From Bacteroidales bacterium (GTDB lineage Bacteria > Bacteroidota > Bacteroidia > Bacteroidales > UBA10428), in contig JAFGVA010000168.1 in NCBI GenBank assembly GCA_016938235.1, forward strand, positions 1 through 64,000: a stretch of 64,000 nt of DNA, written 5' to 3'. A program made the position numbers and the translations under genes. Numbering within the stretch: the first letter of the stretch is position 1; every line of letters begins with the position of its first letter. Shown here one piece after another: positions 15,733 to 63,297 of the stretch. The notes beneath the pieces were generated by a model. It did not search any database. It saw only the letters and a program-made list of their open reading frames with translations, and was not told the origin of the DNA.

Positions 15733-18630
15733 ATGAGAATATTTACAATTATTACTTTGATTTTGATAAATGCCTACACAATTAAGGCAAACTTGAATAG
15801 TAAAAGTTATATCACAACAGAGAATTCAAAAGAGAACTTTACTCTTATAGGGCCTGGAAAAATTACACCCATTTGGCTCAGTTCTTCCGATTACAAAGGA
15901 GTATTTATTGCTGCCGGAAACTTACAAAAAGATATTATGGCTGTATCTGGCAGGTTACCCGAAATGATTGTTGATACCTTTACGGCTGCGAATGAAGTAT
16001 TAATTATCGGGACACTGGGTAAAAGTAAGCTAATCGAATCACTAATTAGTCAGAATAGAATTGATACTACAGGGTTAACCGGTAGATGGGAGAAATTTTC
16101 CATTCAAACAATTAAAGAACCATTACCTGGGATAAATAAAGCAACGGTAATTATAGGTAGCGATAAACGAGGCACGATATATGGCATTTATGACCTGTCA
16201 GAACAAATTGGTGTTTCACCTTGGTATTGGTGGGCTGATGTTCCTGTTAAGAAGAAAAACGAAATTTATATTATTCCTGGAGTTTATACGGAGGGTGAAC
16301 CTGCTGTGAAATACAGGGGCATTTTTATTAATGATGAATCGCCAGCATTCAGAAACTGGGCCTTTGAAAAGTTTGGAGGTCAGAATCACGAATGTTATGA
16401 GAAAATATTTGAGTTATTACTGAGAAATAAGGCCAATTATTTATGGCCTGCCATGTGGCTTCCTACGATTTTTAATGAAGATGACACTTTAAACCCAAAG
16501 ACTGCTGATGATTATGGTATTGTAATGTCTACTAGTCATCACGAGCCACTCATGCGCTCCCATAACGAATGGTATGTATTTGGAGGTGGAGAATGGAATT
16601 ACCTTACTAACAAAGATAAGCTTCGGGAATTCTGGCGAGGAGGGGTGGAACGAATGGGTGATTACGAAAGTGTTGTAACTGTGGGAATGCGCGGAGATGG
16701 AGATGATGCCATGTCTGAAGAAACAGCCGTAGATTTATTAAAGGAAATTATTGCTGATCAGAGAAATATTATAGCTGATGTTACAGGAAAACCTGCAAAT
16801 GAGACACCCCAGGTTTGGGCAATATACAAAGAAGTGCAGGATTATTATGATAAGGGAATGCGCGTTGATGATGATATTACAGTCCTCTTCAGCGATGATA
16901 ACTGGGGCAATATCCGTTATTTGCCAAAAGAAGAAGATTTAAATCATCCAGGTGGGTATGGAATGTACTATCATTTCGATTACGTTGGGTCTCCTGTATC
17001 ATATCGTTGGTTGAATGTCACCCAGATTGAAAGAGTCTGGGAGCAAATGAATCTAACCTACGAACATGGTGTTAAAAACCTTTGGATTGCTAATGTCGGT
17101 GATATTAAACCGATGGAATTGCCTATTAGTTTCTTTTTCGATTATGCCTGGAATCCTGATGCAATTCAGGCAGATGATTTACCCTACTATTATGAAAGCT
17201 GGGCCCGGCAGCAATTTGGTGTCGCTCATTCCAATGAAATTGCAAAACTTCTCGCACTATACACGAAATATAATGCGCGACGAACGCCTGAGATGATAAC
17301 TCCTGAAACTTACAGCATTGAAAACTATCGTGAAGCAGATAGAATTGTTGAAGAATACAAAGAACTGGAAGAAAGAAGCAGAAAAATTTATGGACAACTT
17401 CCTGAGCAACAGAAATCGGCCTTTTATCAATTGGTACTATCTCCCATCGAGATGTGTGCAAATCTTAATGAAATGTACGTTGCTGCCGGAAAAAACAAAT
17501 ACTATGCAGAGCGTGGCGCAGCTTCAGCCAATTACTATGCCGATAAGGTAAAGGAGCTATTTGAAAGAGATGCTGAACTTACAAGGTATTACCATGAAGT
17601 TCTTGAAAATGGTAAATGGAACCACATGATGTCCCAGACTCACATTGGATATACTAGTTGGGCCCACCCTCCCTTAAACAAAATGCCAGCAGTTTCGTAT
17701 GTACAAATTCAAAAACCTGCAGAACTAGGTTATCTGCTCGAGTATGGGAAAACTCCCTATTGGGGTTGGCTTGATGTAGAAGCCGACTGGTCATTCAGTC
17801 ATGAATTTTTGCCTTTCGACCCTGTAAATAATCAAAACTACTATATCGATATTATTAACCGGGGCGAGGAACCCCTTTTTTATAATATTAAGGCTGTAGA
17901 TGATTGGATTATCCTATCATCAGCACAGGGTACTACCCAATACAATGAAAAAATTTATGTCAGTATCGATTGGGATAAAGCTCCCAAAGGAAATGCAGAA
18001 GGTGAGATCCTAATTTCCGGAACTATGCAGGAGTATACCGTTAAGGTACCCATAAAAAATAATCTGACTGCTACTGAAGGTTTCATTGAAAACAATGGTG
18101 TAGTATCTATTGAAGCTGAAAAGTATACAAGAAAAACAATCACGAACGATATTCGATTCACAGTGATACCTAACCTGGGACGGACAAGCTCCTCGCTTAT
18201 TATAGAACCCGTTACCACTAAAACCCTTGCCCCCGGCACAACTGCTCCCCTAGTTGAATATGATTTCACGACATTTAGTGCCGCAGAGCTGTCAATTGAG
18301 GCTTTTCTATCTCCTAGTCAGGATTTTAAAAAACAAGGAGGACTAAAATATGCGATTGCCATTGACAACGAGGAACCACAGATTATAAATATGAATGAAA
18401 GGGAGGAAAAACCGGACTGGCAATATGCTAACTGGTGGACACAATCGGTAGGCGATCACATTAAAATTAAGGTATCACAGCATAAGATTGACCAACCCGG
18501 CAAACATACTCTCAAGATTTGGATTCTTGATCCGGGGATAGTATTCCAAAAATTTGTGATTAATATGGGTGGTCTCAGACCCAGTTACCTGGGACCTCCA
18601 GAAAGTATATTTTATGAGGCTGTTCCATAA
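15733..18630 (+). CDS. GH115 xylan alpha-1,2-glucuronidase
   Basis: GH115 enzymes remove glucuronic or 4-O-methylglucuronic acid side groups from intact xylan or long oligosaccharides. Seen: signal peptide (about 1-19), then the family features GTIYGIYDLSEQIGVSPWYWW, YRGIFINDESP, NKANYLWPAMW, GMRGDGDDAM, FSDDNWGNIRYLP and GGYGMYYHFDYVG, and the C-terminal domain ending GGLRPSYLGPPES. The length (965) is full for the family, including the C-terminal beta-sandwich. There is no T9SS tail, so it is probably periplasmic. It sits 62 bases after the CxxCH propeller gene. A decayed partial copy of the same gene lies at 19790-20849. Confidence 0.95.
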   Translation: MRIFTIITLILINAYTIKANLNSKSYITTENSKENFTLIGPGKITPIWLSSSDYKGVFIAAGNLQKDIMAVSGRLPEMIVDTFTAANEVLIIGTLGKSKLIESLISQNRIDTTGLTGRWEKFSIQTIKEPLPGINKATVIIGSDKRGTIYGIYDLSEQIGVSPWYWWADVPVKKKNEIYIIPGVYTEGEPAVKYRGIFINDESPAFRNWAFEKFGGQNHECYEKIFELLLRNKANYLWPAMWLPTIFNEDDTLNPKTADDYGIVMSTSHHEPLMRSHNEWYVFGGGEWNYLTNKDKLREFWRGGVERMGDYESVVTVGMRGDGDDAMSEETAVDLLKEIIADQRNIIADVTGKPANETPQVWAIYKEVQDYYDKGMRVDDDITVLFSDDNWGNIRYLPKEEDLNHPGGYGMYYHFDYVGSPVSYRWLNVTQIERVWEQMNLTYEHGVKNLWIANVGDIKPMELPISFFFDYAWNPDAIQADDLPYYYESWARQQFGVAHSNEIAKLLALYTKYNARRTPEMITPETYSIENYREADRIVEEYKELEERSRKIYGQLPEQQKSAFYQLVLSPIEMCANLNEMYVAAGKNKYYAERGAASANYYADKVKELFERDAELTRYYHEVLENGKWNHMMSQTHIGYTSWAHPPLNKMPAVSYVQIQKPAELGYLLEYGKTPYWGWLDVEADWSFSHEFLPFDPVNNQNYYIDIINRGEEPLFYNIKAVDDWIILSSAQGTTQYNEKIYVSIDWDKAPKGNAEGEILISGTMQEYTVKVPIKNNLTATEGFIENNGVVSIEAEKYTRKTITNDIRFTVIPNLGRTSSSLIIEPVTTKTLAPGTTAPLVEYDFTTFSAAELSIEAFLSPSQDFKKQGGLKYAIAIDNEEPQIINMNEREEKPDWQYANWWTQSVGDHIKIKVSQHKIDQPGKHTLKIWILDPGIVFQKFVINMGGLRPSYLGPPESIFYEAVP

Positions 18631-35751: not shown

Positions 35752-38670
35752 ATGAAAACAAAAGTTTTGGCTTATGCTAAAAGACACTTCCTGTTTTTAA
35801 TTTTATTTTTATTCTCAGTTTGTATAAATGCACAATACCAGGAATGGTATGAAAATGCGCAGGAGAGAATAGATACACTGCGTAAGGGAGATTTCGGAGT
35901 TAAAATTCTTGATAAAAACGGACAACCCTACCAGGGAAGCGTTAAGTTGAGTCTGTCAAAACATGAATTCCCATTTGGAATTGCCTTCGATTTATACGAA
36001 GGTGCAGTGAATAATGGTAATTCCTATACTACAACTTCTACTGTTACAGCACCAGAAGATGCAGAAATATACCAATCCGAAAGGTGGTATTCTTACATTG
36101 CCTATGCTATACCGGTCGAAGCTGGAAGGAATTATATTGTCACTCTAAAATTTGCTGAGGTTTATTTCGATAATCCAAATTCAAGAATATTAAATGCTAA
36201 CATAGAGGGTGAACCCTTTCTTACAAATTTTGATGCTCTGAATGCTGCAGGAGGCAAAAATATAGCAATAGATACTTCTTTAGCACTAACTTCGTCAGAT
36301 ACAACTATAAACATTGAATTAGTTTCCATTCTGGATAATGCTGCCATTAAGGGTATTGAAATTCAAACAGCAGAAGGCGACTGGAAATTAAAAATTAACT
36401 GCGGAGGTGGCGAACTAACCACTTCAGATGGAAACTTTTACCAGTCAGATGAAGACTATTATGATTTAAATGCTCCAAGAATTCCATCAGAAGAACAATG
36501 GATGAAAGCTGCAATGCAAAAATATTTTAACTACGGGGTTTCTGGTAACTCCTTCAAATGGAGTGGTATTCAGCCTCAACATACTACCCCCGATTATACC
36601 AATTTTGAACATGCTGTTGACTGGACACAAAGTATTGGTTGGGATTTAAGAGCGCACACACTCTTGTGGGGTGGTGATGACGATCATTCTATGCCAGGCT
36701 GGATAAGAAGCCTTCCAACACCACAACAAATAACAGATACCTGCAAAATGCGCGTGCAACGCGAGGTTTCGTGCTATAAAGGTATTGTCAAAGAATACGA
36801 TGTAATTAATGAGCCATTAACCGGTCATGCCGATTGGTTAAGAAATACAGTAGGCGATTCCATACTTTGGAATTGCTTCAAATGGGCGCGCGAAGTCGAC
36901 CCCGATGCAGAATTATACATAAACGATTATAATGTTGAATTAAACTGGGGACAAGCAGCAGAATACCGCGATCTTGTATTAAGAATACTGGAAAATGGAG
37001 GTCCTGTGACTGGTATTGGAATTCAGGCTCATTTCTGGGATTGCTGCAGACCAAATGTAAATGAAGTAGTAAATAACTTTAACATTTTAGCAGAGACCGG
37101 ATTGCCTCTTAGATTAACAGAATACGATTGGGGAACTAATTTAACGGAGGAACAGCAGGTAGATGATTTTATTATGGTTGCCACTATAGCTTATTCTCAC
37201 CCTTCGGTAAATGGAATGATTTGCTGGGGCTTAAGCGATAATGGTGCCTGGAGAGAAAATACCGGTTTTTTTGATTCTAACCACCGCCCTAAATTAGCCG
37301 CCGATACTCTTTTGTATCTTACCAAAAAATTGTGGGCGACTAATTTTGATACCACTCTTACTAACACCGATGATTTACTTTTTAATGCATATTACGGAGA
37401 TTATACCATTGAGGTAGAATATGACGATACAATAAGAGTATTCACAGTTCCTTGTTTAGAGGCAAATGCTGATTCTGTTTTTGTTCTTTCAATGAACAAT
37501 GCTGTAATTAAAGGGCCAGAACTGCTTGAAGCTAAATTATTAAGCGACACTTCTGTTTCGCTTGTTTTCGATAAACCACTTCAGGCAGAATCTATATTCG
37601 GAGGCAACTTTAAATTCTTTTCAAATAACTTACTAAAAATAGAGCGTGTTAAAAGGGATACTGAAAATGAAAATACCCTGATATTAACACTTCAAAATTC
37701 TATTACACCCGAGGATTATCTTAGTGTTTCTTATTTTCCGGGATTTTTGAAAGCAACAGATGGTTCAACTGCAAATGCTTTTGGTCCCGATCCTGTAGAA
37801 AACCTTACCCGTGGTATAATAGCTGCCGAAGTTATTAATGATGGACTTGAAATCGAACTTACTTTCAATGAAGATGTTGAAAATCTCTCAGAAAATGGAG
37901 CCTCATTTACAGTTGCTGACAATGGTACACCTGTAGAGGTTGTTGCTGTGGGCGACGATGGAGTTAATTTTTCAAAAGCAGTAGTTACACTTTCAGAAGC
38001 TCTGACAAGCACCAGCAAACCTGTGGTTAAATATACTAAGGGTAACCTGAAACCTGTTACTGGTTTTGATTTTCAATCTACACAGCTTTCGGTAACCAAT
38101 CTTTGGCCAAAAGTAGTTCGTGCTGAGCTGTCAACCAACGGCAATAAGCTTGATGTTTTGTTTAATACTTTACTGATTAATCTTGAGGAAAATATCGATG
38201 CTTTTGTAATACTGGCAAATGATGAACCAATAGAAATAAGCAGCATATCAGAGACAGGTAAAGATTCAAGCATCGTTAGCTTTAACCTGAATTCAAGCAT
38301 TAGCTCTTCTTCAACGGTGACTATATCTTATACCAAAGGTACGGTTAAAGGCCAAAATGGTAACAGTCTGGCAAACATCGAGGCTAAAGCTGTAGTCAAT
38401 AACTCAAACTACACAAGTATAATTCAGAGTCTGTCAGATAAGATAAAAATATTCCCTAATCCGGCTTCGAACCAAATAACAATTACTTCAGATGAGTTTA
38501 TTAATGAAGTGTTGGTGTTCGATATGACCGGTAAATGTATGGTTCATGAAAATCTTGGCTCAACAGTTAAGTCATACAATTTATCAGTAGAACTTGAATC
38601 TGGTTTATACTATGTTGAAGTAAAAGGAAACTCAGGATCAGATTTAACAAAACTAATAATCAGGAATTAA
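35752..38670 (+). CDS. Secreted GH10 xylanase with malectin-like insertion, adhesion-type repeats and T9SS tail
   Basis: 972 residues: signal peptide (1-25), the first GH10 strands (about 44-84, HEFPFGIAFDLY), an inserted malectin-like binding domain (about 86-240), then the rest of the GH10 barrel (about 246-540) with acid/base Glu354 in DVINEPLT and nucleophile Glu457 in LTEYDWG. After it come two or three SwmB/Ig-like beta domains (about 595-885) and a T9SS tail from KIFPNP. Within the insert the usual first malectin strand (KINCGGGE, 214-221) comes after the rest of the domain, so the insert appears circularly permuted. An insertion at this point of GH10 is known for some gut Bacteroides xylanases. 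The sorting tail is very like that of the next gene. A strong terminator follows. Confidence 0.9.
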   Translation: MKTKVLAYAKRHFLFLILFLFSVCINAQYQEWYENAQERIDTLRKGDFGVKILDKNGQPYQGSVKLSLSKHEFPFGIAFDLYEGAVNNGNSYTTTSTVTAPEDAEIYQSERWYSYIAYAIPVEAGRNYIVTLKFAEVYFDNPNSRILNANIEGEPFLTNFDALNAAGGKNIAIDTSLALTSSDTTINIELVSILDNAAIKGIEIQTAEGDWKLKINCGGGELTTSDGNFYQSDEDYYDLNAPRIPSEEQWMKAAMQKYFNYGVSGNSFKWSGIQPQHTTPDYTNFEHAVDWTQSIGWDLRAHTLLWGGDDDHSMPGWIRSLPTPQQITDTCKMRVQREVSCYKGIVKEYDVINEPLTGHADWLRNTVGDSILWNCFKWAREVDPDAELYINDYNVELNWGQAAEYRDLVLRILENGGPVTGIGIQAHFWDCCRPNVNEVVNNFNILAETGLPLRLTEYDWGTNLTEEQQVDDFIMVATIAYSHPSVNGMICWGLSDNGAWRENTGFFDSNHRPKLAADTLLYLTKKLWATNFDTTLTNTDDLLFNAYYGDYTIEVEYDDTIRVFTVPCLEANADSVFVLSMNNAVIKGPELLEAKLLSDTSVSLVFDKPLQAESIFGGNFKFFSNNLLKIERVKRDTENENTLILTLQNSITPEDYLSVSYFPGFLKATDGSTANAFGPDPVENLTRGIIAAEVINDGLEIELTFNEDVENLSENGASFTVADNGTPVEVVAVGDDGVNFSKAVVTLSEALTSTSKPVVKYTKGNLKPVTGFDFQSTQLSVTNLWPKVVRAELSTNGNKLDVLFNTLLINLEENIDAFVILANDEPIEISSISETGKDSSIVSFNLNSSISSSSTVTISYTKGTVKGQNGNSLANIEAKAVVNNSNYTSIIQSLSDKIKIFPNPASNQITITSDEFINEVLVFDMTGKCMVHENLGSTVKSYNLSVELESGLYYVEVKGNSGSDLTKLIIRN

Positions 38671-57175: not shown

Positions 57176-59110
57176 TTATTTATTGGTTTCAAATAGTTTG
57201 TTCGATATACTTTTTATCATAAACTGAATCTCTCTTTTAGTTTCAGTATATGACACAACTTTTTTCTTATTTTGTTTTGAAGCCATATCATTTAATATCA
57301 AGGCCAGCCTGTCAATTTCTTTATGAGTATTTTGTATTCCGAGACTTACACGAGAAACTCCAGGCAATTCCATGCCTGGAACAACTTTTACCATAAATTT
57401 CTGAATTTTTTCTGCAAAAGGAGGAATGCCTTCAATGTGTTTCACAGTAAGGTGAGAGCAATGACAACCTGCCCGGATACCTATTCCGCTGTTCAGGGCA
57501 AGCTTTTTTGCTATGCCGGGAGCCATTGTTCCTTTTAAGCTGAAGGCTAAAACTCCTCCTCTGTTTTTAATGTGTTCTGAATTTGTGTCAGTAATTCCAT
57601 AAAGTTTAATGCCGGGTATTGTCCTTAGTTTCCCGATGGTATACTTTATAAGGTTTTGCTCCTCATAAAAGATTGTTTCCATGCCAATTCTCTGAAGAAT
57701 ATCCAGGGCTTTACCCATTGCAGCTATTCCACCAGGATTTTCGTATCCTGAGAATTCAATTTCACTGATAAATTCATGAGGAAGGTTCAAAAGACCTTTT
57801 CTGGCTATAAGTGCTCCACTACCAAATGGTGCGTATGTTTTGTGAGACGAAAAGGCCAGAAAATCTATATCTAAAGCAGCTATGTTTATGCTTTTATGAG
57901 CGGCAATTTGTGCTCCGTCAACCAGTAATTTTGCTCCGTATTTATGACATAATTTACTTATAGTTCCGATATCATTAAACACTCCAAGTACATTTGAGGC
58001 TGCCGTAATGCAAACCAGCTTAATTTGTTTGGTGCCATAAGATTGTTTGCTGTTGTATGTTTCAAGCAGGTGCTTAAGTTGCCCGCTATCAATAAAGCCA
58101 AAGGTATCAAAGGGTAAGCGCAGCAAGGAAAGTTTTTTAGATGCCTGCCAGGGTATTTCATTCGAATTGTGTTCTAAAAGCGTATTTACAATTACGGTAT
58201 CGTTTTCAGAAAAATTCTCAAATCCTTTGGCTATAATATTTATTGCTTCTGTAGTATTCTGGGTAAAGAAAATATCATATTTGTCCTGTGGCACATTAAA
58301 AAACTCCGAACAAATTGACCTAACCTTTCGGTGAATTTCATCTTGTTTTTGCCGGGGTATCAACAATGCTTTTTGAAAAACATTCCAAACAGGTTTAAAG
58401 CTTGGAGTGCTTGCAGCATTGTCGAGATTTATATAATCAGTCTGACCATTTGTTGTGGGAACCAAAACAGATTTACCAATTAATTCCATACGTAAACCAG
58501 ACAACAATTCTTTGCCAGATAAGGAATCTAATTCATCCTTAAACAGCTCATCCAGGGTTATTTTCTGCAGATTATCCGGATCATTAAAAACATCTTCACC
58601 AAATTGTTTTATAAGTTGCAAAGCTTTTGCAAACATGATAATATTTATGATTGCAGGTGTTCCGGCCTCAAATTTATCCGGCAACTTCGACCAGATAATC
58701 CATTCTCTTGATACTAGTCTGGCAGTGCCTCCTCCGGTGAAGGGTGCTTTAATTTTCTTTAAGATTCGTTTTCTTACTGCCAGGGCAACAACTCCCAAAG
58801 AGATTCCAATTTCATAACCTGATATTTTTTTATAATCTTTTTGGTTCAGCTGTTTTTCGATATGTGAAGTTTGTAGCTTTGAGCCAAACACAACACTGTA
58901 ATCAGATGGATTCAGATTAAGGTGTTTTAAGACAATTTTTCGCGATTCTTCAAATAAAAAGGTTGTTATCATGGAAAAATGACCACTGCCTCTGTGCACA
59001 TTTGAGTATGTTTCAAGAACTTTTCCGCCGCTTTTAATCAATTCCTTAAACACAGACTCAGAAAGACCAACTGTCTTATAATTTTTTTCTATGCTGTATG
59101 TTTGATTCAT
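57176..59110 (-). CDS. Class V aminotransferase / cysteine-desulfurase-like protein with a degenerate duplicate N-terminal half
   Basis: 644 residues in two related parts. The C-terminal part (about 235-620) is a complete PLP-dependent class V fold: INLDNAASTP, TQNTTEAIN, LVDGAQIAAHKS, and the PLP lysine Lys424 in SSHKTYAPFGSG. GCHCSHL near 558-564 supplies Cys at the position where desulfurases bear the catalytic Cys. The N-terminal part (about 15-200) repeats fold pieces (YSNVHRGSGHFS and FGSKLQT, then KIKAPFTGGGTARLVSREW and FEAGTPAI). The middle, including the PLP-lysine segment, is missing, so that half cannot be catalytic. It may be a fused remnant or a structural/dimerisation domain. 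It is central in the five-gene unit between two MDR oxidoreductases. The substrate could be cysteine, selenocysteine or another amino acid. Confidence 0.85.
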   Translation of the reverse strand: MNQTYSIEKNYKTVGLSESVFKELIKSGGKVLETYSNVHRGSGHFSMITTFLFEESRKIVLKHLNLNPSDYSVVFGSKLQTSHIEKQLNQKDYKKISGYEIGISLGVVALAVRKRILKKIKAPFTGGGTARLVSREWIIWSKLPDKFEAGTPAIINIIMFAKALQLIKQFGEDVFNDPDNLQKITLDELFKDELDSLSGKELLSGLRMELIGKSVLVPTTNGQTDYINLDNAASTPSFKPVWNVFQKALLIPRQKQDEIHRKVRSICSEFFNVPQDKYDIFFTQNTTEAINIIAKGFENFSENDTVIVNTLLEHNSNEIPWQASKKLSLLRLPFDTFGFIDSGQLKHLLETYNSKQSYGTKQIKLVCITAASNVLGVFNDIGTISKLCHKYGAKLLVDGAQIAAHKSINIAALDIDFLAFSSHKTYAPFGSGALIARKGLLNLPHEFISEIEFSGYENPGGIAAMGKALDILQRIGMETIFYEEQNLIKYTIGKLRTIPGIKLYGITDTNSEHIKNRGGVLAFSLKGTMAPGIAKKLALNSGIGIRAGCHCSHLTVKHIEGIPPFAEKIQKFMVKVVPGMELPGVSRVSLGIQNTHKEIDRLALILNDMASKQNKKKVVSYTETKREIQFMIKSISNKLFETNK

Positions 59111-61170: not shown

Positions 61171-61203
61171 AGTTGTATATTGCAACAGTTATAATATGCA
61201 ACT
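61171..61203. promoter_or_regulatory. Inverted repeat immediately before hgcA (candidate operator)
   Basis: AGTTGTATATT (61171-61181) and AATATGCAACT (61193-61203) pair at 10 of 11 positions around an 11-base spacer. The repeat ends three bases before the hgcA ATG. TGCAAC also recurs directly at 61181 and 61197, 16 bases apart, so a dimeric regulator could bind one face of the helix. The MarR-type regulator at 62534 is the obvious candidate (inference). Confidence 0.5.
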
Positions 61204-61206
61204 ATA

Positions 61207-62220
61207 ATGAATTTTGCGAATATTAGTTTTGATAACCAGCTCATAGTAAACTCAACCTGGACCATGTCTGATTATATCGGGGCGTTGCGCGTTCGCTCTT
61301 CCATTGGTAGAAATAAGTATGTTATTAGTCCTGGTTTATACAGGTTGGGTAATCCCGGAAAGGAGGATAGAATATTTGTATCGGCTAATTACAAGTTGAG
61401 TTTTGATGTTTTACGCAGAAGTCTAACGGGTATGAATGCATGGATTCTTGTGCTGGATACAAAAGGAATTAATGTTTGGTGTGCAGCAGGTAAAGGAACC
61501 TTTGGAACAGAAGAACTTATTAAGCAAATCAGGGAGGCCGGTCTCGAACATTTGGTATCAAATAGAGAGCTTATAGTTCCTCAGCTTGGTGCTCCAGGTG
61601 TTTCAGGATTTAAAGTGAAAAATGCAACAGGCTTTAATGTTGAGTTTGGTCCTGTCAGGTCTGACGATATTATGGAATACATTGCTGCCGGCAGAAAGAA
61701 GACTCAGGCTATGCGTACAGTACGGTTTAATCTGAAAGACAGGTTAATTCTGACAATGGTTGAAATTGTGAATTCATTAAAGTATCTAGGTATTGCAATG
61801 ATATTGGTGCTTCTGCTTTCGGGCATAACAAGCGGGGGCTTTAGTTTTTCAACAATGATAAATAAAGGGCTAACAGAAATAGTATTATTGATTCTGTCGT
61901 ATTTAACCGGATGCTTTATCACCCCAATACTTTTACCATGGCTACCTACAAGGTATTTTGCTGCAAAAGGTCTGTTTGCAGGGTTCCTGATTTTCATGAT
62001 GGTTTTTTTTCTGCGAGTTGTACCGTTTTCTGGCTGGTCTCTTGCTGGCTGGTTATTATTGTTTAGTGTAGTATCCTCTTTTCTGGCAATGAATTTTACT
62101 GGTGCCAGTACCTATACCTCATTAAGTGGAGTAAAGAAGGAAATGAGAATTTTTGTTCCCGTTCAAATTGTGATGGTGCTTACAGGATTGGCTTTAATAA
62201 TAGTTTCAAAATTTGTTTAA
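61207..62220 (+). CDS. hgcA: HgcA, membrane corrinoid protein for mercury methylation
   Basis: HgcA transfers a methyl group from its cobalamin to Hg(II), giving methylmercury, and needs HgcB. Seen in 337 residues: an N-terminal corrinoid-binding domain (about 1-165) with YVISPGLYRLGNP, SANYKLSFDVLRR, AWILVLDTKGINVWCAAGKGTFGT and LIVPQLGAPGVSG. It contains the family's signature NVWCAAGK, with Cys92 as the expected cobalt ligand. A membrane domain of about five helices follows (about 180-335), as in known HgcA. Length is normal. hgcB begins on the base after the stop. The signature separates HgcA from the carbonyl-branch corrinoid protein CdhD, which lacks this membrane domain. The methylation role is family knowledge; activity here is inferred. 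Confidence 0.95.
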   Translation: MNFANISFDNQLIVNSTWTMSDYIGALRVRSSIGRNKYVISPGLYRLGNPGKEDRIFVSANYKLSFDVLRRSLTGMNAWILVLDTKGINVWCAAGKGTFGTEELIKQIREAGLEHLVSNRELIVPQLGAPGVSGFKVKNATGFNVEFGPVRSDDIMEYIAAGRKKTQAMRTVRFNLKDRLILTMVEIVNSLKYLGIAMILVLLLSGITSGGFSFSTMINKGLTEIVLLILSYLTGCFITPILLPWLPTRYFAAKGLFAGFLIFMMVFFLRVVPFSGWSLAGWLLLFSVVSSFLAMNFTGASTYTSLSGVKKEMRIFVPVQIVMVLTGLALIIVSKFV

Positions 62221-62514
62221 ATGGATAATCAGAAATATTTAAGGAATGTTTCAACACTTGCCTATGATGCTTCAAAATGCATTGGTTGCCGGGTGTGTAT
62301 TGATGTTTGTCCCCACAATGTATTCAGAATGGAAAAAAAGAAAGCTGAAATTATTGACCGGGACAAATGTATGGAGTGTGGAGCCTGCACAACTAATTGC
62401 ATTACTGGTGCTCTGCAGGTAAATAAAGGGGTGGGCTGTGCAACAGCTGTAATCTATAGTTTCTTCAGTGGCGGCGAAGCAACCTGTGGATGCAGTGATA
62501 CAAGTTGTTGTTAA
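62221..62514 (+). CDS. hgcB: HgcB, 2[4Fe-4S] ferredoxin partner of HgcA
   Basis: HgcB is thought to reduce the HgcA corrinoid and to hand over Hg(II). Seen in 97 residues: two 4Fe-4S motifs, CIGCRVCIDVCP (Cys20, 23, 26, 30) and CMECGACTTNC (Cys50, 53, 56, 60), an isolated Cys73, and a C-terminal pair Cys96-Cys97. Cys73 and the terminal pair sit where HgcB has its conserved extra cysteines. This protein has two additional cysteines (Cys89, Cys91) in CGCSDTSCC. It starts directly after hgcA with no gap, so the two are translationally coupled. Confidence 0.95.
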   Translation: MDNQKYLRNVSTLAYDASKCIGCRVCIDVCPHNVFRMEKKKAEIIDRDKCMECGACTTNCITGALQVNKGVGCATAVIYSFFSGGEATCGCSDTSCC

Positions 62515-62533
62515 TTTTTAAAATTTACAAATT

Positions 62534-62983
62534 ATGAATGATGAGTTTATTCAGCATTTCAGGGAAATTATAAGAATTCTTGACAGGGAAATATTCTATC
62601 AGAATCAATCTTCGTGTTGTAATGGCATAAGTGTGGCACAATGTCATACCCTGCTCGAAATTGAAAAGAAAAAAGAGATTTCTGTTTCGGAACTGGCAGA
62701 TTGCCTTTCACTTGACAAAAGTACGGTTAGCAGAACAATTGAAGGGCTTGTCAATATTAATCTTGTTGACAGAATTATTCCAAAGAGAAACAGGCGTATG
62801 GCGCTTGTAAGTTTAACGAGCGGTGGTAAAAAAGTGTGCGATAATATTAATTACACGAACAATAAATATATCAAACGGCTTTTGGATAATTTTTCGGAAA
62901 GCGAACGAGAAGAATTCCTTCGTTTATTAAGAAATTTTACCTGTAATATGGCTGAAGCCAGAAAAGGCAATTCATGCTGCTAA
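62534..62983 (+). CDS. MarR-type regulator rich in cysteines
   Basis: 149 residues with a winged helix-turn-helix (about 30-110): VSELADCLSLDKSTVSRTIE (recognition helix) and the wing IPKRNRRMALVSLT. Cysteines stand at 28-29 (SSCCNG), 37, 56, 137 and 148-149 (NSCC at the C-terminus). Such clusters suggest sensing of thiophilic metals or arsenic, though MarR proteins also sense phenolics. It begins 20 bases after hgcB and is probably cotranscribed with it. By position and by the inverted repeat before hgcA, it may regulate the hgcAB unit. Confidence 0.85.
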   Translation: MNDEFIQHFREIIRILDREIFYQNQSSCCNGISVAQCHTLLEIEKKKEISVSELADCLSLDKSTVSRTIEGLVNINLVDRIIPKRNRRMALVSLTSGGKKVCDNINYTNNKYIKRLLDNFSESEREEFLRLLRNFTCNMAEARKGNSCC

Positions 62984-63042: not shown

Positions 63043-63297
63043 ATGTATATGGAATTCAAAAAACTTGAAATAGAGCCGGAATCGAATTGGATAAAAAGAG
63101 CAATTAAGACACCCCATATTCGTAAAACCTTAGTTTATATTTTGATTGGAGCAGTTGCCGGTTTCGGATATTTCTATCTTACCGAAGGGCAGCATATGGA
63201 TGAGCTTAGTGGACGACTGGTATTAAAGAGTATGCTGATAGGCGGTTTTTTTGGCTTTTTTATCACAAACAGTCCTTGTGCGCGTGGACGATGCTAA
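63043..63297 (+). CDS. Small two-helix membrane protein ending in a Cys pair
   Basis: 84 residues (alternative Met at residue 3). Polar N-terminus, one helix near 29-46 (LVYILIGAVAGFGYFYL), a second near 62-76 (LIGGFFGFFI), and a C-terminus NSPCARGRC with two Cys four residues apart. It is reminiscent of the DUF6132 proteins of Bacteroidota but differs in the Cys positions, so I leave it unnamed. It lies behind the MarR gene with its own promoter and palindrome, and ends in a terminator. The Cys tail hints at a link with the thiol-rich genes upstream. Confidence 0.7.
   Translation: MYMEFKKLEIEPESNWIKRAIKTPHIRKTLVYILIGAVAGFGYFYLTEGQHMDELSGRLVLKSMLIGGFFGFFITNSPCARGRC

Follow-up and report, generated by a model that had tools for sequence, protein, structure and literature searches.

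A cysteine-rich MarR-family regulator and a conserved putative operator accompany the mercury methylation genes hgcAB in Bacteroidota and other phyla

What triggers hgcAB and which purpose HgcAB serves are key questions for environmental methylmercury. In known methylators, HgcAB transfers a corrinoid-bound methyl group to Hg(II). The window, i.e. the whole stretch of 64,000 nt of Bacteroidales DNA analysed here, contains an hgcA-hgcB pair placed between an inverted repeat and a marR gene. This arrangement raises the question of what controls the pair. Judged from sequence comparison, hgcAB is probably controlled by a thiol-switch repressor of the MarR family whose signal is a thiophilic metal(loid) or thiol stress, a reading to which we assign a probability of about 0.7.

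The hgcA-hgcB pair is real and is located exactly where an earlier note on this DNA had placed it. HgcA (61207..62220, + strand, 337 aa) is a corrinoid protein with a membrane domain, and the signature NVWCAAGK with Cys92 and the corrinoid domain are present as the note had described. The cap-helix motif of HgcA is N(V/I)WCA(A/G)GK, its cysteine being the cobalt ligand. Among 12 aligned HgcA proteins the respective columns are invariant or nearly so. HgcA reaches 416.7 bits with the curated NCBIfam equivalog HgcA_corrinoid (NF040863, cut-off 275). HgcB (62221..62514, + strand, 97 aa) is a 2x[4Fe-4S] ferredoxin with a Cys pair at its C-terminus and reaches 122.1 bits with HgcB_ferredoxin (NF040864, cut-off 99). 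Its cysteines are located at 20, 23, 26, 30 and 50, 53, 56, 60 as well as at 73, 89, 91, 96 and 97, in agreement with the two 4Fe-4S motifs, Cys73 and terminal Cys-Cys noted before.

The five-helix membrane domain reported earlier is found again in the AlphaFold model of HgcA as five long C-terminal helices in residues 176-336, and among PDB folds it matches the HgcAB model 9a0b best. Residues 86-97 including Cys92 have a pLDDT < 50 in this cofactor-free model. A CdhD/ACS gamma identity of hgcA, which the earlier note had named as the competing assignment, was rejected: the HgcA model scores far above CdhD-type models (62.9 bits with PRK04165, cut-off 306). Moreover, no full-length CdhD-type match is obtained, as only residues 41-157 align, to PF03599 positions 269-385. 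An HgcAB-like fusion model was likewise rejected (192.8 bits, cut-off 285). HgcA is the single PF03599 match at E ≤ 0.001 in the window's assembly (5.2 Mb, 239 contigs). Since HgcA exceeds its cut-off in 23 of 392 genomes of the order and Bacteroidetes mercury methylators are already in print (PMC7438021), the pair as such is of an ordinary, known kind.

The earlier note had also proposed that the organism makes methylmercury while living on plant polysaccharide, which would link biomass decay to mercury transformation. The first part holds insofar as mercury methylation by the window organism is predicted from its hgcAB equivalogs. The second part is not borne out, because the xylan-type genes share only the window with hgcAB. 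Ten window ORFs were scanned and comprise two of GH10, one of GH115, one of SusD and two of TonB-receptor type (299-2365, 15733-18630, 35752-38670 and neighbours), a set that fits xylan use. The note missed the regulator that follows hgcB and the inverted repeat that precedes hgcA; these two suggest metal(loid)/thiol control instead. Elsewhere in the window, a protein of 644 aa (57176-59110, - strand) consists of ~220 residues free of Pfam matches followed by a cysteine-desulfurase-like domain, and it matches the family 2A encapsulin cargo desulfurase model in part, well below threshold (203, cut-off 800).

The marR gene (62534..62983, + strand, 149 aa) starts 19 bp after hgcB and is the last gene of the proposed operon. 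Its product passes the Pfam models MarR_2 (41.6, cut-off 27) and MarR (40.2, cut-off 24.6), and the predicted structure is a MarR winged-helix fold with a mean pLDDT of 90.6 and 50 fold matches among those listed (E 3.8e-9 to 4.9e-7). An ArsR/SmtB identity was rejected (21.9 bits with the metalloregulator model, cut-off 55). The protein contains eight cysteines (28-29, 37, 57, 102, 137, 148-149). Cys29 is the sole cysteine that is invariant in 22 aligned MarR proteins, the other 21 being 18-69% identical to the window MarR. The C-terminal CC is absent from L031, L032 and G402 and present in only 9 of 15 hgc-linked MarRs, and hence is not essential. These 15 proteins contain 4-9 cysteines and a CC in 14 cases, compared to 0-3 cysteines and no CC in 11 further MarRs encoded in the family genomes.

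A gene of 84 aa further downstream (63043-63297, + strand) was considered as fourth member of the operon. It is left out because neither Pfam nor NCBIfam gives a match at E ≤ 0.001 and because a stretch resembling a Bacteroidota -7 box, TATCTTTG, precedes it. The encoded protein ends in SPCARGRC, and a weak relative (20 bits) is found ~5 kb from hgcAB in L049.

The proposed operator is an imperfect 33-bp inverted repeat, AGTTGTATATTGCAACAGTTATAATATGCAACT, at 61171..61203, i.e. -36 to -4 relative to the hgcA start. Its first half is AGTTGTATATTGCAAC (61171-61186) with the core TTGTATATTGCAA. The second half, an imperfect inverted site with 3 mismatches (61188-61203), ends 3 bp ahead of the hgcA start codon. 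This operator site is the single copy with ≤1 mismatch in the window's assembly. The site is placed ahead of hgcA and not ahead of marR. If it represents the MarR operator, hgcAB would be under the same control, because both genes lie between the site and the regulator gene.

The order hgcA-hgcB-marR with orthologous marR is also found in two named MAGs of Bacteroidales/Bacteroidota (L031 and L032, with 59% and 58% HgcA identity to the window), in G402 of the same genus and in G395 of the same family. AGTTGTATATTGCAAC is present at the equivalent place before hgcA in all four, and the 15-mer core is exact in all five Bacteroidota loci of this order found, window included. The hgcAB of G392 has no adjoining marR, and the site is absent before its hgcA, as judged by reading the upstream sequence and scoring the 15-mer; the same genome carries the site with one mismatch in the 16-mer before a marR located elsewhere. 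Across 23 family genomes the 16-mer at ≤1 mismatch yields 8 sites, compared to 1 for the reversed-pattern control. Three of them precede hgcA-hgcB-marR (G000, G402, G395) and three a stand-alone marR (G401, G247, G392). The two remaining ones (G395 C139, G399 C51) were rejected as operators and set aside as chance matches since both are located inside long ORFs.

A profile of the Bacteroidota MarRs detects orthologues (E ≤ 1e-18) in 6 of the 392 genomes of the order. Among 395 genomes sampled from the phylum, the window's own is the one with an orthologue. A 20-mer at ≤2 mismatches matches 27 of the 392 order genomes (control ~10), where the surroundings of five MarR-linked matches and, by ORF list, of four others (L166, L169, L171, L173) were inspected. 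Five of the six MarR genomes have such a match just before marR or before the hgcA-hgcB-marR unit, and all three zero-mismatch matches belong to such units. The MarR orthologue of G117 has just a one-mismatch core.

The stand-alone marR genes belong to other operons. G129 and G262 show the order marR-GNAT-MATE-gshF, G401 marR-cysK-GNAT-MATE-gshF and G247 marR-MATE-gshF. The operon of G381, marR-cysK-MATE-gshF, is followed by an ArsR-like gene (Pfam HTH_5 37.7, cut-off 22; NCBIfam ArsR 50.7, just below 55) and a cluster that encodes, among others, a DsbD_2 protein and a permease of Pfam ArsP_1. In G117 marR is transcribed divergently from a further acetyltransferase-like gene, MATE and gshF, and G392 has marR-C_GCAxxG protein-methyltransferase. 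Families were scored on selected members, the remaining genes being named by sequence reading. The GNAT of G262 is ArsN2 (144.7, cut-off 125), and GshF (900.1, cut-off 425) and MATE (221.9, cut-off 147.4) of this genome also pass, as do the GshF of G401 and G247 and the cysteine synthase of G401 (364.1, cut-off 344.2). No gshF over cut-off is found in the window genome, which has a partial match (E 5.5e-4). The joint link to gsh genes hence runs via orthologues in other genomes. An operon of the type marR - arsN2-like/cysK - MATE - gshF is seen in scattered Bacteroidales (L140, L142, L193, L194, L195, L196) and apparently represents a glutathione-based metal(loid) or electrophile response; we know of no such gene order for glutathione.

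The linkage extends to other phyla. We compared 80 named hgcA loci, which are biased to the kin of the window, being the best-scoring 80 of at least 575 confirmed ones. A related MarR in the same direction is found in 12 of them, twice after hgcB (Bacteroidota) and ten times before hgcA. The latter loci belong to KSB1 (two), Aminicenantes (one), Smithella/Syntrophales/'Deltaproteobacteria' (six) and one further bacterium. Their MarRs share 18-26% identity with the window MarR and keep Cys29. The gene order thus differs by group, with site-hgcA-hgcB-marR in Bacteroidota and site-marR-hgcA in the other phyla. A looser site, TTGYA-N3-TRCAA, is common to these loci: the strict 13-mer TTGYANNNTRCAA is located near the start of the unit in 11 of 12, and L082 has TTGTATGACACAA with one mismatch. 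In total the 80 loci contain 15 copies in 804.6 kb. The strict 13-mer occurs before hgcA in none of the 68 loci without MarR, searched between 200 bp upstream and 60 bp downstream of the called start of the hgcA ORF; 73 of the 80 loci have at least 600 bp upstream and a few are short of upstream sequence.

As the pattern was generalised from the 12 loci themselves, it was tested on further ones. In 155 genomes of the Smithella class, 54 MarRs of at least 150 bits are recovered with a profile built on the upstream MarRs. This line was set at the observed score gap, the next hit being G943 (102 bits, internal stop, left out), followed by 78 and lower. 53 of these 54 genes lie upstream of hgcA on the same strand, and the 54th is located at a contig end. 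The spacing between MarR and HgcA matches amounts to 157-472 bp, N-terminal extension of HgcA included. Leaving out six discovery loci and one without upstream sequence from 30 loci, 23 that had no part in defining the pattern remain, from related genomes that were not thinned. Within 150 bp, 19 of the 23 contain the strict 13-mer, compared to 0.027 expected from dinucleotide shuffles, and all 23 contain it at ≤1 mismatch (1.0 expected). Genome-wide, the loose 13-mer is by no means rare (191 copies in 12 genomes vs 145 for the reversed pattern). Hence the weight of this evidence lies on position. As far as these comparisons reach, the conservation of site and MarR is far beyond chance.

Of 154 Smithella-class genomes, 75 have an HgcA above its cut-off, so that the upstream MarR is common but not universal there. 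Several Syntrophales-type loci show a TTGACA-like element beginning ~20 bp before the site, a position that would fit repression by occlusion. A Cys-rich N-terminal extension is frequent in HgcA of the Smithella class (L262-L291, 26 of 30 MarR-linked). It contains a CC in 20 of these 30 according to a crude test, in which bases ahead of the start codon were counted too; Aminicenantes L085 shows the same feature. The extension is absent from four Bacteroidota proteins examined.

MarR is not the only presumed regulator next to hgcA. In 27 of the 80 named loci, ArsR-like genes are found at up to ~2 kb from hgcA, and a single one of these loci carries the MarR as well, on the opposite strand; the profile was built from five genes of these loci and scores range from 23 to 168 bits, so the weak ones may be other winged-helix proteins. 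The window's own family also has hgcA in ars-type clusters with arsR-, arsC- or acr3-like genes (L144, L148-L151), most of these genes being named from their sequence. Of those scored, the L148 ArsR exceeds the threshold of its model (61.3, cut-off 55) and the ArsN2-like protein of L149 is just short (119.6, cut-off 125). Within one bacterial family hgcAB thus adjoins two different kinds of presumed thiol regulator, and MarR control would be one solution among several, because several hgcA loci of this family sit in ars-type clusters. The hgcAB of G392 (L143) has a divergent neighbour cluster whose genes read as ArsR / thioredoxin-like / CcdA-like / permease. Judged from broken matches and from two of the sequences, the ars-type HgcA of L144, L150 and L151 (G401, G322, G403) has an apparent insertion of ~30 residues in its corrinoid part which the window HgcA lacks. 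Apparently broken hgcA genes are seen in L148 (G400), L149 (G409) and L134/L147 (G398), either cut after ~41 residues, split near the Cys motif or left as a stop-containing remnant, which may reflect gene loss or assembly error.

Phylogenetic trees were built for both proteins. The HgcA tree, a quick one, comprises 55 sequences (the window, 34 of the 80 named loci, 14 order loci and 6 family loci). In this tree the window HgcA clusters with four other marR-followed HgcA and that of G392 (SH-aLRT 91). Neighbours of this group are a KSB1 and a Thermodesulfovibrionales sequence (SH-aLRT 89), and most Bacteroidales HgcA are placed elsewhere. A horizontal origin of the lineage was considered; a single clade of the 22 Bacteroidota rows is acceptable in a 36-row test (p-AU 0.301) and hence no transfer is claimed. 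The MarR tree splits 12 Bacteroidota MarRs from 10 upstream MarRs by a supported branch (100/99). It does not separate hgc-linked from gsh-linked members and is mostly unresolved among them, so that we claim no order of events.

How could such a switch operate? We assume that 61171-62983 forms one transcription unit in the order operator-hgcA-hgcB-marR. A dimeric MarR repressor would bind the TTGYA-N3-TRCAA palindrome at the hgcA promoter, whereby hgcAB and marR would be switched together by negative feedback. Cys29, joined by further cysteines in most members, may react with or coordinate As(III), Hg(II) or a similar thiophilic metal(loid); alternatively an oxidant or electrophile may be the trigger at this residue. 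MarR with a reacted cysteine would then leave the DNA and hgcAB would be expressed as part of a thiol/metal(loid) response. The strongest argument that the control of hgcAB matters is the recurrence of the MarR pairing with opposite gene order. As to the signal, the invariant cysteine, the high cysteine content and the arsN2/gshF/cysK/MATE neighbours together suggest thiophilic metal(loid)s or thiol stress, while an oxidant or electrophile fits almost as well.

The most serious competitor holds that the ligand of MarR is a small organic molecule, or its signal oxidative/redox in general, with no role for metals, the cysteines being structural or redox-active. MarR regulators with many other ligands exist, the listed fold matches are MarR proteins of drug, organic-ligand and redox types, and the gshF/cysK/MATE operons would suit electrophile or oxidant stress as well. 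However, metal(loid)s are favoured by ArsN2 in the G262 operon, by the ArsR-like gene and ArsP_1 permease close behind the G381 operon and by the ars-type surroundings of other hgcA of the same family. We therefore regard this explanation, which overlaps with the oxidant/electrophile branch of the thiol switch, as possible though less probable. It is improbable that MarR controls itself only, with hgcAB in the operon by chance and a signal irrelevant to HgcAB function: orthologous marR without hgcAB does head other operons and the hgcAB of G392 does without marR, but the pairing recurs in opposite order and in 53 of the 54 Smithella-class MarRs, and the window site is placed before hgcA instead of marR. 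Equally improbable is an ordinary hgcAB pair in one more Bacteroidota with nothing special in its control, for which the spread of hgcA in the order and the published Bacteroidetes methylators could be cited but which does not account for a conservation of site and MarR far beyond chance.

With the thiol-switch repressor as preferred reading, the window can be set against known systems. Its gene pair shares equivalog pass, gene order and Cys motifs with known hgcAB (NF040863, NF040864) and differs by the Cys-rich marR that follows and the proposed operator that precedes it. ArsR-like control of hgcAB in Pseudodesulfovibrio mercurii ND132, as cited in PMC10349881, is similar in that the regulator is a winged-helix protein, adjoins hgcAB and has a link to arsenic. 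It belongs to another protein family, however, whereas the window regulator passes MarR_2, is located after hgcB and has a conserved site. One sentence of PMC10349881 mentions that in Dethiobacter alkaliphilus and Geobacter daltonii a MarR-family gene precedes hgcA. This is again a MarR beside hgcA, possibly of the same subfamily, and the relevant section of that paper gives no analysis of cysteines, site or regulon. Moreover, a putative transcriptional regulator immediately upstream of hgcAB is reported for 112 genomes of several phyla (PMC7438021) and may include the upstream MarRs found here. Its family is unstated in the part of that report concerned with it, which likewise contains no site, arrangement after hgcB or arsN2/gshF link. 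Our searches of open-access papers yielded no description of the site, the conserved cysteine, the Bacteroidota arrangement with marR after hgcB or the sharing of the site with gshF-type operons. While hgcAB itself is ordinary and metal(loid)-linked regulators beside it are already known, the regulator with its site is the new element.

A defined site and regulator can be tested in vitro or in a reporter strain, with no handling of a methylator, and the link to arsN2, glutathione synthesis and efflux provides a concrete list of inducers to try. In metagenomes, site and MarR may serve as a sequence signature separating MarR-linked from ArsR-linked hgcAB. Tentatively, HgcAB may even be part of a widespread thiol/metal(loid) response, in which a Cys-rich MarR family with the TTGYA-N3-TRCAA site would control hgcAB in several phyla and alternate with the arsN2/MATE/gshF/cysK operon in Bacteroidota; the natural function of HgcAB would then lie in dealing with thiophilic metal(loid)s or thiol stress and not in accidental methylation. 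Taken together, regulator and site allow a testable proposal on the conditions under which the mercury genes are expressed and on the reason for it.
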